Assembly: GCA_002400885.1 (NCBI GenBank)
Contig: NVRM01000018.1
Span: 1 to 34,042, forward strand
Length of the DNA: 34,042 nt
Direction of reading: 5' to 3'
DNA from: Flavobacteriaceae bacterium
GTDB taxonomy: Bacteria; Bacteroidota; Bacteroidia; Flavobacteriales; Flavobacteriaceae
Under the pieces are notes generated by a model that worked only from the letters and a program-made list of their open reading frames with translations, had not been told where the DNA came from and made no database searches. The position numbers and the translations under genes were made by a program. This document shows positions 29,519 to 34,042 of the stretch, piece by piece (positions within the stretch are counted from its first letter, which is position 1; every line of letters starts with the position of its first letter).

Positions 29519-30277
29519 ATGAAAATAGTTATTTCTCCCGCAAAATCTTTAGATTTTGAAACAGCAGTACCTACAGATAACCATACAGAGGCTCTCTTTT
29601 TAAAAGAAGCGGAAGTGTTGAGTACGGTGCTTAAAAAGAAATCACCTAAAAAAATAGGAGATTTGATGCATATTTCTCCTGCTTTGTCAGCATTGAATTG
29701 GCAGCGCAATCAAGAATGGGCATTGCCTTTTGATTTAGAAAATGCCAAGCAAGCCGTTTTCGCTTTTAATGGAGAGGTGTATACAGGCATGGATTCCTAC
29801 TCTTTGTCGGCGGATAAAATTGTGATATTACAGGATAAACTTCGTATTTTATCAGGGCAGTATGGATTACTAAAACCATTGGATTTAATGCAAGCCTATA
29901 GGTTAGAAATGGGGACGAAATTAAAAGTGGGAACCAAAGAGAATTTATATAAATACTGGGGTACAAAGATTACGGATGCTTTAAATGAAGAATTGGAAGA
30001 AGGGGAGGTATTTGTAAACTTGGCAAGCAACGAATATTTTAAATCGGTACAAGTAAAAAACATTAAAGTACCAGTAATTACTCCTGTCTTTAAAGATTAT
30101 AAAAATGAGAAGCTAAAAGTAATTAGCTTTTTTGCAAAGAAGGCGAGAGGTTTAATGGTGCGTTTTATTATTGATAATAATATTGAAACCGTTGATGGTT
30201 TAAAAACATTTGATTGTGAGGGCTATGGTTTTGATGAGAAGTTGTCTACAGAGCTTGAGTTGGTGTTTACTAGGTAG
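29519..30277 (+). CDS. yaaA: peroxide stress protein YaaA (DUF328)
   Basis: 252 residues beginning with the family hallmark MKIVISPAKSLDFE. Further conserved parts are FNGEVYTGMD, ILSGQYGLLKPLDLMQAYRLEMG and VNLASNEYFKSV. The family limits DNA and protein oxidation under hydrogen peroxide by lowering free iron, and it binds DNA in vitro. The gene follows the terminator at 29427-29458, and no TAnnTTTG box is seen in the 60 nt before the start. Its 3' end overlaps the tail of the convergent exporter gene by 55 bp. Confidence 0.92.
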   Translation: MKIVISPAKSLDFETAVPTDNHTEALFLKEAEVLSTVLKKKSPKKIGDLMHISPALSALNWQRNQEWALPFDLENAKQAVFAFNGEVYTGMDSYSLSADKIVILQDKLRILSGQYGLLKPLDLMQAYRLEMGTKLKVGTKENLYKYWGTKITDALNEELEEGEVFVNLASNEYFKSVQVKNIKVPVITPVFKDYKNEKLKVISFFAKKARGLMVRFIIDNNIETVDGLKTFDCEGYGFDEKLSTELELVFTR

Positions 30278-32451
30278 ATAATACTTGTTTTATAGGTTGT
30301 TCCAGAAATCGCTATAAAATTAGATGTTTGCATCAGTTTTGTGTGATTTCCTTGATGAGAAATACTGCCTTTTTCTAGTACGTAAATAGTATCTGCCATG
30401 TTTTTTAAAGAGTGTATTCTATGCGAAATAAATAAAATCCCTAAATTGTTCTTTAATTTATCTAAGAGTTCTAATGTGAATTTTTCTGTATTTCTATCCA
30501 TAGCTGATGTTGCTTCATCTAGAATCAATAATTCAGGTTTTTTTATAATTGCTCTTGCAAGGGCAATTATTTGTTTTTGTCCTCCAGAAAGGTTTATACC
30601 TTCTTCGCCTAGTATTGTTGAGTAGCTTTGTGGAAAAGTTTTTATGAAATTGTCAAAACCATATTCTTTACAAAAATCAATTACTTTTTCAGGGATGTAC
30701 TCTTGGTCTAGCATAATGTTATCTAAAACGTTTCCTCTGAAAATTTTAATTTCCTGAGGTACCACTCCCATTTTTTGTCTCCAACATTTTAAATCTATAT
30801 CTCTAAAATTATGTTTATTATTGATAGTTATTTTTCCATTTTCAAAATCATATAATTTTTGTAAGATTAAACCAATAGTGCTTTTTCCACTACCACTTTC
30901 TCCAATAATTGCAGTGATTTCCCCTTTAGATATATGAATGTTGATAGTTTTTAAGAGTTGACCTCTTCCTGCGAATCGATATGATAAATCTTTTATGTCT
31001 ATTGATTTTAAATTTGTTATTTTGAGTGTTCCTTTGTCTTCTTTTTTGATTAATGAAAATTCAAACATTCTATTAAAGGCTACTTTTGCTTCTTGTATTT
31101 CTATGTTTATTAATGCCAAATTTGAAGTTGATGACATTAAAATAGCTACAAGTTGTAAAATTGCGATTATTGAACCTGCAGTAAGGTTTTTATCCAGTAT
31201 TAAGTATATACTGTAACTTAATGTCGATATAATAAACACACTGGAAACTAGTTGATTAATTGTTTGATATTTTAAACCTAAGCGGTTAAGGTTGAAAATT
31301 GCTCCTTGAAATTGTTTATAAACAGTATTAGTTTGTTTTGAAAAAGAAGATTCTCTGTTATTCGTTTTTATTGTTGCAACTCCTTGGATTGTTTCTATAT
31401 AATTACTTTCGTTTCTGGCGTAGGATTGCATTACTAATTTTTGAAAAGTCTTTATTTTAGGGTTAAAATAAATTACAATAACTGTAAATACAGGAATCCA
31501 TAAAAGTGTTATTAGTCCTAGATTAGTATTGTATGAGAATATACTGATAGATACTACTATAATCATTAGAATATCTATCATGATTTCTCCTATTATCTTA
31601 GAAATAGTTTCTTGGATACGACTCGTGTCATTCATTCTTGCAACCATGTCTCCTATTTGTCTAGTATCAAAAAACGATTTAGGTAGCCTAAGTAAGTTTT
31701 TATAGAAGTAGTCGATTACTCTGGTATTATAGTCTCTGGTTTGCCTAATTAAAAATGAACTACGGATATAGCTTAAAAATGTTTGAATATTAAATAAAAT
31801 AATTAGAAGGAAAATACTCGAAACAATCTTAAAAGTGTTATTTGAAGGTAATAGAACGTCGATTAGTTTTTGTGAATAAATGGCTGTAGACAATCCCAAG
31901 ACTGCAACCAAAATACCTAGGAGTAAGGATGTGGATAGTAAATTAAGGTCTTCTTTTATGTATTTATATATCCATGACCATTTTTGTTTGTTTACAGTTG
32001 TTGTTGTTGTTATAATATCGCCTGTAGGTTCAAACAAAATTAGAGCTTTAGACTTCCAAATGTTATTTAAAGAGTCCTCACTTAAATAGGTTATTGAAGT
32101 TGTAGCAGGGTTACTTATAATAAATTTTTCTTTTTTCCTGTCGTAGCCAAAACATACAATATAATGTTGAAGTGTTTCCTCAAAAACGGTATGTAAAATA
32201 GCGGGGATTTTAATTTCCTTTAAGGCATCAATAGTTGATTCATATCCTTTAGGTTTAAAACCTAGTTTTTGACCACATTGTACCAATCCTAACATGGTAG
32301 TTCCTTGTTTAAAGGTGCCACTTAGCTCTCTTAAATTTTCTAAAGAGCTATGACTGTTAAAGTACTTTAAAATTGTTTGTATGCAAATAATTCCGCAGTC
32401 GGAATTATCTAACTGTTGAGAATGGCTTTTTATAATTTTTTTAATTCTCAT
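30223..32451 (-). CDS. C39-peptidase-containing ABC exporter (double-glycine peptide exporter)
   Basis: 742 residues. The N-terminal C39 peptidase domain (1-140) has the cysteine motif QLDNSDCG (C19) and H96 of HYIVCFGYD. The third catalytic position is N114 (SNPA), where DP is usual. About six membrane helices lie between 170 and 450. The nucleotide-binding domain has Walker A GESGSGKS (517-524), LSGGQ (621-625), Walker B LLILDE (641-646) and the switch H677. Such exporters cut precursor peptides after a double glycine and secrete them. The start overlaps the upstream gene by 11 nt. The last 17 codons lie antisense to the end of yaaA, and the tail after residue 710 looks non-conserved. Its likely cargo is the peptide at 33341-33502. 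Confidence 0.92.
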   Translation of the reverse strand: MRIKKIIKSHSQQLDNSDCGIICIQTILKYFNSHSSLENLRELSGTFKQGTTMLGLVQCGQKLGFKPKGYESTIDALKEIKIPAILHTVFEETLQHYIVCFGYDRKKEKFIISNPATTSITYLSEDSLNNIWKSKALILFEPTGDIITTTTTVNKQKWSWIYKYIKEDLNLLSTSLLLGILVAVLGLSTAIYSQKLIDVLLPSNNTFKIVSSIFLLIILFNIQTFLSYIRSSFLIRQTRDYNTRVIDYFYKNLLRLPKSFFDTRQIGDMVARMNDTSRIQETISKIIGEIMIDILMIIVVSISIFSYNTNLGLITLLWIPVFTVIVIYFNPKIKTFQKLVMQSYARNESNYIETIQGVATIKTNNRESSFSKQTNTVYKQFQGAIFNLNRLGLKYQTINQLVSSVFIISTLSYSIYLILDKNLTAGSIIAILQLVAILMSSTSNLALINIEIQEAKVAFNRMFEFSLIKKEDKGTLKITNLKSIDIKDLSYRFAGRGQLLKTINIHISKGEITAIIGESGSGKSTIGLILQKLYDFENGKITINNKHNFRDIDLKCWRQKMGVVPQEIKIFRGNVLDNIMLDQEYIPEKVIDFCKEYGFDNFIKTFPQSYSTILGEEGINLSGGQKQIIALARAIIKKPELLILDEATSAMDRNTEKFTLELLDKLKNNLGILFISHRIHSLKNMADTIYVLEKGSISHQGNHTKLMQTSNFIAISGTTYKTSIIYLVNTNSSSVDNFSSKP

Positions 32452-33328
32452 GTGTTTCCAACGTTAAGCCAATAATAAAATTAGTATATCCCAAAAATTC
32501 TGCATCATAATCTTTAGCTACCTCCCATTGTCCATTTCTACTAAAACAATTTTTAAAATATGTCGTAATTAAAACATCCTTAGACTCTTTGTTTGTAAAT
32601 GTAAATGCAGGAAATACTAATTTGTCTTTTTTAAGATTTCCATAGTTATCAATTTTTCCTAGCATTTCAATACAAATAAAGAAGCCCTTTTTATTAAAAA
32701 TAATTTCTTCTTCTGAAACGTCAATACCAATAAATTTTTTCGAATCCTGATTACAAAAAAACATAATAGGTTTATCAATTAAAGGTTCACCAAGAGTATT
32801 GTTTTTATTTGAAAATAAGTGTATTTTAATAACACTATTATATGTTTTTTTTAAGGAATGTGAATAAGTTTTGTTTCTAATGGGAATATATATATATCTT
32901 ATATATGTGTTTTCTTGTTTTTTTTTATTTTGAACTAATATACCTAGTTGAGAGTTTGGTTTCAGATTGAAAAACAGTTTAGTTTTTTTTGGCTTTATTT
33001 TTTTTATTCTTGGTTTTTTTTGCCTAATTATTACTTGGTTTAATTGAGTGATTTTTGGTGTCAAAAAAATAGTGTCAGTTAATTGACGGGGGTGTATATT
33101 TAAATTAAAATAGCCTAAACTTAAAATTTGAATTGAATCTATTTTGTTTTTATTGATATTGAATACGCCTTTTTCATCACTAAAAAAACTTACTTGTTGA
33201 TTGTTAACAACCACAATAGCGGAAAAAGGGATAGGTTCATATGTTTTAGAATCAAAAATTTGATGAATGCTATTTTGTGAAAATGAAAGGTTAAAAATGA
33301 ATAATAGAACAAAGTGTAATCTTTTCAT
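32441..33328 (-). CDS. secreted carboxypeptidase-regulatory-like protein of the peptide-export operon
   Basis: 295 residues. A signal peptide ends near residue 18 (MKRLHFVLLFIFNLSFSQ). A CarboxypepD_reg-like beta-sandwich spans about 20-100 (SIHQIFDSKTYEPIPFSAIV, SDEKGVFNINK, ILSLGYFNL). The rest is lysine-rich and beta-rich with no recognised domain. It ends with NFIIGLTLETHEN and has no T9SS sorting motif. The gene is 12 nt after the peptide gene and overlaps the exporter start by 11 nt, so it is part of the same unit. It could be an envelope partner for the exporter or an immunity or receptor-type protein. It is AT-rich and lysine-rich like its neighbours, unlike the core genes. Confidence 0.75.
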   Translation of the reverse strand: MKRLHFVLLFIFNLSFSQNSIHQIFDSKTYEPIPFSAIVVVNNQQVSFFSDEKGVFNINKNKIDSIQILSLGYFNLNIHPRQLTDTIFLTPKITQLNQVIIRQKKPRIKKIKPKKTKLFFNLKPNSQLGILVQNKKKQENTYIRYIYIPIRNKTYSHSLKKTYNSVIKIHLFSNKNNTLGEPLIDKPIMFFCNQDSKKFIGIDVSEEEIIFNKKGFFICIEMLGKIDNYGNLKKDKLVFPAFTFTNKESKDVLITTYFKNCFSRNGQWEVAKDYDAEFLGYTNFIIGLTLETHEN

Positions 33329-33340
33329 GTTAATTTTAAT

Positions 33341-33502
33341 CTAACAAGGTGTTGGTGTATATCCCCTAGTTTTTACCCAAAAGACTCTGTAAGTACAATT
33401 TTGATAACAACTCCCAGCAATTGAATATTTTTGACCGCAGTCTTTTCCCCAAAATTTACCTCCTTCAAGGTTTTCTAATTTTTCTAATGATAATTCTTTC
33501 AT
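33341..33502 (-). CDS. bacteriocin-type precursor peptide with double-glycine leader
   Basis: A 53-residue ORF from an ATG at 33502-33500 to TAG at 33343-33341. The leader MKELSLEKLENLEGG has the hydrophobic spacing (L4, L6, L9, L12) and G14-G15 that C39 peptidases recognise. The predicted mature part begins KFWGKDCG and has 38 residues, four cysteines (C22, C32, C36 and the C-terminal C53), several aromatics, and a net charge near +5 (four K, two R, one D). It lies 12 nt upstream of the carboxypeptidase-regulatory-like gene and in the same direction as the C39 exporter. A secreted, disulfide-bonded antimicrobial or signalling peptide is the likely product. The sequence of the core is not one I recognise. 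Confidence 0.82.
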   Translation of the reverse strand: MKELSLEKLENLEGGKFWGKDCGQKYSIAGSCYQNCTYRVFWVKTRGYTPTPC

Positions 33503-33590: not shown

Positions 33591-34042
33591 CTAATTAAAA
33601 TTCATTTCCATTATACTCGAAAAAATAAACCACATAACAAAACCAACACCGTATGTTTTTAATACTAATATATTTGATTTTAAATAGTTTATGTTAGTTG
33701 AGCAGCTCACTATTTTTGGTAACCCTATGAAAATTAATAGTTGTGTTAGATTTATAGCAGATAGTGATAATATTGACCAGGTTGGAAATGTTGTATTATT
33801 AAAAAAATATAATATTGAAAACTTAGTGTCTAACTCCATGAATGTTTCCATGGTAATTGTTTGTCCACTATAAACAAAATATAGAGTTTTAAGTATTTGA
33901 ACAATAATATATGCGAGATAGGTTTTTATTATAAAAGTTATTGTTTTTGACACTTTTATTTTTAAGTTTAAAAATAGAAACCCAGTATTTAAACAAAAAA
34001 GAGTAGCTATAAAAAAAGAGAAAAGCAGGATACTTTCTCGTG
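33591..34042 (-). CDS. polytopic membrane protein, 5' end outside the window (immunity candidate)
   Basis: The frame ending in TAG at 33591-33593 is open without a stop to the right edge, giving at least 150 residues. The possible GTG start at 33953 is therefore probably internal. Five hydrophobic segments are visible: one upstream of that GTG (SILLFSFFIATLFCLNTGFL), then TITFIIKTYLAYIIVQIL, a middle segment near FPTWSILSLSAINLTQLLIF, a weaker one, and the final TYGVGFVMWFIFSS. No family is certain; a Yip1-like arrangement is conceivable. It is 88 nt upstream of the precursor gene on the same strand. Immunity proteins of peptide bacteriocins are often small membrane proteins, hence the suggestion. 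Confidence 0.6.
   Translation of the reverse strand, partial: RESILLFSFFIATLFCLNTGFLFLNLKIKVSKTITFIIKTYLAYIIVQILKTLYFVYSGQTITMETFMELDTKFSILYFFNNTTFPTWSILSLSAINLTQLLIFIGLPKIVSCSTNINYLKSNILVLKTYGVGFVMWFIFSSIMEMNFN

Follow-up and report, generated by a model that had tools for sequence, protein, structure and literature searches.

The described systems closest to the present locus are the bacteroidetocins (PMC6671954, PMC8546649), class II-like Bacteroidota bacteriocins with which it has in common a double-glycine (GG) leader of 15-16 amino acids, Lys after the GG, a short Cys-containing core, a five-transmembrane (5-TM) protein and a C39 ABC exporter, each from a shared family, and the lack of an evident outer-membrane export gene. 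Loci of this layout make toxins, and a thiol oxidoreductase is encoded in most, not all, of the described regions (PMC6671954). The bacteroidetocins act on BamA (PMC8546649); those studied experimentally have no immunity gene, and their producers are killed (PMC6671954). The TM protein of bacteroidetocin-type operons is described as unknown in the literature. A second relevant system is BamP of the F. johnsoniae BAM complex (PDB 9n2d chain E), annotated as a "CarboxypepD_reg-like domain-containing protein". In the tripartite BamP, the linker reaches into the BamA barrel through the lateral seam; BamPs shield F. johnsoniae BamA from darobactin (PMC12611786).

The window (the whole stretch of 34,042 nucleotides that was analysed) is the entire contig of a 75%-complete, marine-type Bacteroidota genome. 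Its minus strand encodes, in this order, a multi-TM protein, a GG peptide, a secreted CarboxypepD_reg-like protein (the partner), and a C39 exporter:

33591..34040, minus strand: multi-TM protein, truncated at its 5' end by the contig edge and homologous to the bacteroidetocin-type 5-TM protein
33341..33502, minus strand: GG-leader precursor peptide, 53 amino acids (53 codons), assigned from its sequence and homologues
33458..33502, minus strand: leader MKELSLEKLENLEGG, 15 amino acids, predicted cut after the second G (Gly15); near-invariant in four syntenic operons
33344..33457, minus strand: core KFWGKDCGQKYSIAGSCYQNCTYRVFWVKTRGYTPTPC, 38 amino acids, 4 Cys
32441..33328, minus strand: secreted partner, 295 amino acids, with a signal peptide, a CarboxypepD_reg/transthyretin-like domain (~19-96), a linker, and a C-terminal beta-sandwich (~105-293)
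30223..32451, minus strand: C39-peptidase ABC exporter, 742 amino acids, with Peptidase_C39, ABC_membrane, and ABC_tran above the Pfam cut-off
32035..32424, minus strand: C39 peptidase domain within this exporter; no other was found in the 75%-complete genome

The TM and peptide genes were separated by 88 nt, the peptide stop codon and the partner gene by 12 nt, and the partner gene overlapped the exporter start by 11 nt, so that a single operon is likely. The sequence-only reading had placed the peptide and the exporter in one run; this was correct, although the 295-amino acid secreted-protein gene (32441-33328) intervenes between them. That reading had overlooked both this partner, the most constant companion of the core, and the relatives with a Sec leader described below. 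The remainder of the TM gene was not found on other contigs of the genome, and the fold of the TM protein gave no match in PDB. Among the bacteroidetocin-type TM proteins (L056 5130-5747 and 33 homologues), weak profile matches were seen to YknW (12/34, best E 3.9e-6), part of a Bacillus pump that confers protection from the toxic peptide SDP (PMC4887032), and to Yip1 (3/34, best 1.4e-4). No HlyD- or TolC-type gene was found in the operon.

The minus-strand ORF of 53 codons was present as claimed, and its translation was MKELSLEKLENLEGG followed directly by KFWGKDCGQKYSIAGSCYQNCTYRVFWVKTRGYTPTPC. The leader ended in GG and contained L at positions -4, -7, and -12, and the C39 exporter with its Cys and His was encoded in the same operon, as is typical of a double-glycine substrate; the proposed association of precursor and exporter was kept beside homologous exporters. 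The core was cationic as described, with a net charge of +5 and a pI of 9.3 (computed), and four Cys were located at precursor positions 22, 32, 36, and 53, the last of which is C-terminal. Two disulfides, which are plausible, would lower the computed monoisotopic mass from 4441.07 (reduced) to 4437.04. A bacteriocin function of the core, as had been proposed, is likewise plausible. Searches of the peptide against Pfam, NCBIfam, and PADLOC gave nothing above cut-off, and no match was found among PDB sequences. The core had been regarded as an unrecognised type, and no Pfam or NCBIfam model indeed covers it, whereas the architecture is partly familiar: a TM protein, a GG peptide, and an exporter also make up the bacteroidetocin loci (PMC6671954), from which the present locus differs in lacking the thiol oxidoreductase. 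Two other assignments were rejected: a class IIa bacteriocin, since the core begins with KFWGKDCG and the N-terminal YGNGV motif is absent, and an rSAM-modified RiPP of TIGR04149, a group of GG peptides likewise with a Bacteroidota GG-type leader, since the weak profile match was 10.2 bits (cut-off of 25) and no radical SAM gene was present in the operon.

The locus shared two features with bacteroidetocins: a GG leader of 15-16 amino acids on a peptide with at least two Cys, and an operon containing orthologous genes for the TM protein and for the C39 exporter. Differences appeared when the genes around the exporters were compared. A TlpA-like thiol oxidoreductase was encoded immediately upstream in 49 of the 66 exporter ORFs compared, and loci of this type mostly carried a TM homologue and Gly/Ala-rich GG peptides, mostly with two Cys. 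On the other hand, a CarboxypepD_reg-like gene before the exporter, with no thiol oxidoreductase, was found in only four (window, L056, L083, and L216); in all four partner-type operons the thiol oxidoreductase was absent between peptide and exporter, and the secreted CarboxypepD_reg-like gene stood instead. The window core was polar, with an aromatic FWG...YxxFW pattern, in contrast to the Gly/Ala-rich bacteroidetocin-type cores: GRAVY values were -0.64 for the window, -0.62 for A. marinum, and +0.02 for L083 (computed), against +0.98 to +1.62 for 16 bacteroidetocin-type cores used in place of bacteroidetocins A and B themselves. The C39 triad of the window exporter corresponded to Cys19, His96, and Asn114. 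Its third position was Asn in 4/4 partner-type exporters and Asp in 55/55 other rows with sequence there, and the four exporters clustered with two contig-edge relatives in a quick tree. Papain-type proteases have Asn at the equivalent position, so that the C39 domain of the window exporter may be active. This Asn and the existence of Sec-leader relatives also distinguish the window type from bacteroidetocins.

The gene order TM protein, peptide, partner, and exporter was shared by A. marinum (L056), a Flavobacteriaceae MAG (L083/G1280), and a second Aureibaculum-genus genome (G1273), and the leader in these syntenic operons was identical to that of the window or one substitution away. A family-wide peptide search gave a syntenic homologue of 60 amino acids in Aureibaculum marinum BH-SD17 (G119), 80% identical and with an identical leader, whose 15 codons differed from those of the window by 2 synonymous and 0 non-synonymous changes; in the assembly of this strain, a frameshift seemingly interrupts the exporter ORF. 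The MAG peptide (MKELSLEKLETLEGG...) was obtained from the exporter search (84,980 species). That of G1273 (MKELSLEKLENLEGGKFWGKEDVNVYSEDGCTKTTYRRRYAFWIKYDSEPIDVQYIC), a genome in a single contig with an intact 720-amino acid exporter, came from a search of the A. marinum genus in which only the peptide profile was used, and the partner was then located next door. Besides the leader, the GG-type homologues kept the frame FWG...Y-x-x-FW-[IV]-[KR], with GFG in place of FWG in L083. The leader was therefore conserved beside homologous exporters, as the sequence-only reading had expected, while the expected conservation of Cys did not hold: there were four in three GG-type homologues, two in the fourth, and 0-1 in remote homologues.

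An FWG-type GG peptide with a partner-like gene was also found in L094, and a related peptide in L122. In the latter (Chitinophaga MAG, L122 400-5000), several GG peptides are encoded, separated by recurring fragments of the TM gene, which looks as though peptide cassettes were duplicated along with parts of that gene. A different GG-type peptide (MKNILNLGVPLTKEAQKSILGGNPELVCLVEFCWINGQPALCEVCE; L168 3292-3468) adjoins another CarboxypepD_reg-like gene, and in a Daejeonella MAG (L097 2850-3215) an apparent peptide-gene fragment (...VFGLETPSLC) lies 5' of two tandem partner-like genes. In MAG D96SM.bin.25, one contig ends within this exporter type (L083 8593) and two others (L125 1-234 and L126 1-234) start with near-identical exporter 3' ends and different flanking genes, which suggests at least two operon copies.

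In the 299- and 396-genome searches, clear peptide matches were limited to G000, G119, G042, and G181; the same-genus genomes G003 and G238 gave no peptide match. The DNA next to yaaA differed in the same-genus genomes, and similarity to the window stopped at the yaaA stop codon. The last ~30 codons of the exporter (window 30223-30315) run antisense into the 3' end of yaaA and are not homologous to the relatives, which end in ...FYSEFW..., which gives the operon the appearance of having been inserted or joined at this point. Positions 30223-30315 are probably an insertion or recombination junction, at a site that varies in the genus.

Relatives of the core were not confined to GG leaders. The family search by peptide sequence alone found homologues behind a Sec-type signal in G042 (E 1.5e-7) and G181 (E 9e-5), where no exporter was nearby and the next gene downstream was a partner homologue. 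G1231 was likewise reached with only the peptide profile (E 1.2e-6): its core KFWGRDTHEITANQYGTICQTTDYYVFWIKVSSKTECWACC comes after ...VNVAEA, and a partner homologue (E 1.8e-18) is encoded next, downstream. The signal lacks an in-frame ATG, GTG, or TTG start in the assembly and may be frameshifted. The peptide of G1012 (...TKADA/KMFGQEC...; the slash marks the apparent cut) precedes a secreted protein of 214 amino acids, a shorter partner with a stretch resembling the C-terminal domain, and that of G337 (...YASA/RPFWGTD...), a tentative relative, has a different neighbour. Besides G1012, the weak matches examined in the class-wide profile search sat inside other genes or had no plausible leader. 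In three cases the apparent signal-peptidase site, judged by eye from the AXA motif with no predictor, coincided with the residue of the GG site: AEA/KFWG (G1231), ADA/KMFG (G1012), and ASA/RPFWG (G337). Sec-dependent class II bacteriocins of Gram-positives, such as enterocin P and divergicin A, likewise have a Sec signal in place of the GG leader on a bacteriocin core. They are unrelated in sequence, and the present core family includes members of both leader types, with a partner gene in common. Since distant relatives retain core and partner with a Sec signal and no exporter, core and partner are the conserved unit, and its export route is swappable. With no HlyD- or TolC-type gene, the core of the window should reach the periplasm, as it would via Sec, and this would account for the leader swap, which at a fixed processing site suggests that Sec can take over the essential job of the C39 exporter here.

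The partner matched Pfam PF13715 below cut-off (E 3.1e-5). Its AlphaFold2 model (7 sequences; mean pLDDT of 70) was beta-rich, with two domains and a low-confidence linker. In VIA-align, the first domain matched SusC NTE domains (Z 10.5), carboxypeptidase D, and BamP (9n2d_E; Z 8.0, 15% identity), and the C-terminal domain matched PHR domains (Z ~10), possibly just a common arrangement. A CPD-only profile of partner-type proteins reached 9n2d_E with E 0.0013, behind six TonB-receptor-type sequences, whereas full-length partner profiles did not match BamP, although 9n2d was among the sequences searched. SusC-type CPD domains are closer to the partner than BamP, and a full-length homology with BamP (249 amino acids) was not supported, the match being restricted to the CPD domain and the C-terminal domain being unmatched by sequence. 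Both proteins are secreted, with an N-terminal CarboxypepD_reg-like domain, a linker, and a C-terminal domain. Members of the partner family were found in 116 of the 397 Flavobacteriaceae genomes, mostly away from peptides; peptide-linked partners did not form one clade, and the tree required three or more label changes to place them, so that partner recruitment may have happened on more than one occasion. As a specific marker of such loci, the partner was therefore rejected. We found no literature linking carboxypeptidase-like regulatory domains to bacteriocins in Bacteroidota.

The locus is, rather probably, a compact candidate operon for a peptide bacteriocin released into the periplasm, with the partner as its immunity protein. 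The 53-amino acid precursor would be cut after Gly15 by the C39 domain of the exporter, which would translocate the core of 38 residues through the inner membrane, probably with the help of the multi-TM protein; homology and conservation support precursor synthesis and this export step well. Once in the periplasm, the core would fold and probably form disulfides; leakage or lysis, suggested by the lack of a HlyD- or TolC-type gene, would bring it to neighbours, where it may kill related Bacteroidota at the envelope. The CarboxypepD_reg-like protein, secreted to the producer periplasm, would be the dedicated immunity or partner protein. Its repeated adjacency comes close to showing that it is a specific partner of the core, and the layout of two genes for a secreted peptide and a secreted partner, as of a toxin and its immunity protein, counts for this reading. 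On the other hand, the core is very unlike bacteroidetocins, the partner family is wide and mostly away from peptides, and the bacteroidetocin precedent of self-killing producers does not require an immunity gene. Since BamP blocks the access of an antibacterial peptide to BamA and bacteroidetocins act on BamA, the partner may work in the manner of BamP, its proposed analogue. By this analogy, a BamA target with BamP-like protection, in which the partner shields BamA as BamP does against darobactin, is an attractive form of the last two steps. In the complete version, the locus would represent a toxin-immunity family new among Bacteroidota: an FWG...YxxFW peptide, stabilised by disulfides and exported by C39/ABC or Sec with processing at the same residue, would attack BamA, and the co-encoded CarboxypepD_reg protein would protect the producer by occupying BamA. 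This version is possible but doubtful.

Several other readings were considered. That the ORF arose by chance and has no function, as its short length and its position outside every curated family might suggest, is extremely improbable given leader-conserved syntenic homologues in three other loci and the repeated partner adjacency. The peptide is also unlikely to be an ordinary member of the bacteroidetocin family from which the thiol oxidoreductase has been lost: the 15-amino acid GG leader, Lys after GG, four Cys, TM protein, and C39 exporter agree with this (PMC6671954), but the composition and motif of the core are sharply different, in each of the four operons the partner is present and the thiol oxidoreductase missing, the gene order is unlike that of related Flavobacteriaceae loci, and Sec-type relatives exist. 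GG leaders and C39 exporters serve pheromones too, and the operons of A. marinum and G1273 are each preceded by a response-regulator gene, from which a secreted pheromone sensed by a two-component system could be proposed. In the Aureibaculum-genus loci (L056 4321-4986 and L216 6197-6865) this gene lies 5' of the operon with no adjoining histidine kinase, and the window contig stops short of the corresponding position. We consider a pheromone very unlikely, because no adjoining histidine kinase was seen (the window contig ending before that position), response regulators elsewhere in the window genome were only 26-29% identical, a similar regulator type also precedes an ordinary bacteroidetocin-type locus (L078), and the partner gene is left unexplained.

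The peptide may instead be an envelope component of the producer, serving the CarboxypepD_reg-like protein as a periplasmic ligand or cofactor, for example in outer-membrane assembly or protection. The Sec and C39/ABC routes both end in the periplasm, the Sec-type pairs have no other export gene, the widespread partner relatives not linked to peptides point to general envelope roles of the fold, and BamP, with the same type of N-terminal domain, is an envelope protein. This is nonetheless rather unlikely, since the distribution is rare and patchy, with absence from the same-genus G003 and G238, and a fast-changing core and a lineage-specific insertion beside yaaA are features of competition genes.

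If the toxin-immunity reading is true, the locus would represent a Bacteroidota peptide family not classified before, together with a protein whose fold is now known from the Bacteroidota BAM complex. Bacteroidetocin-like peptides would thereby gain their first candidate mechanism of immunity, which is lacking in the producers studied, and the origin of the BamP type of BamA shield would become testable.
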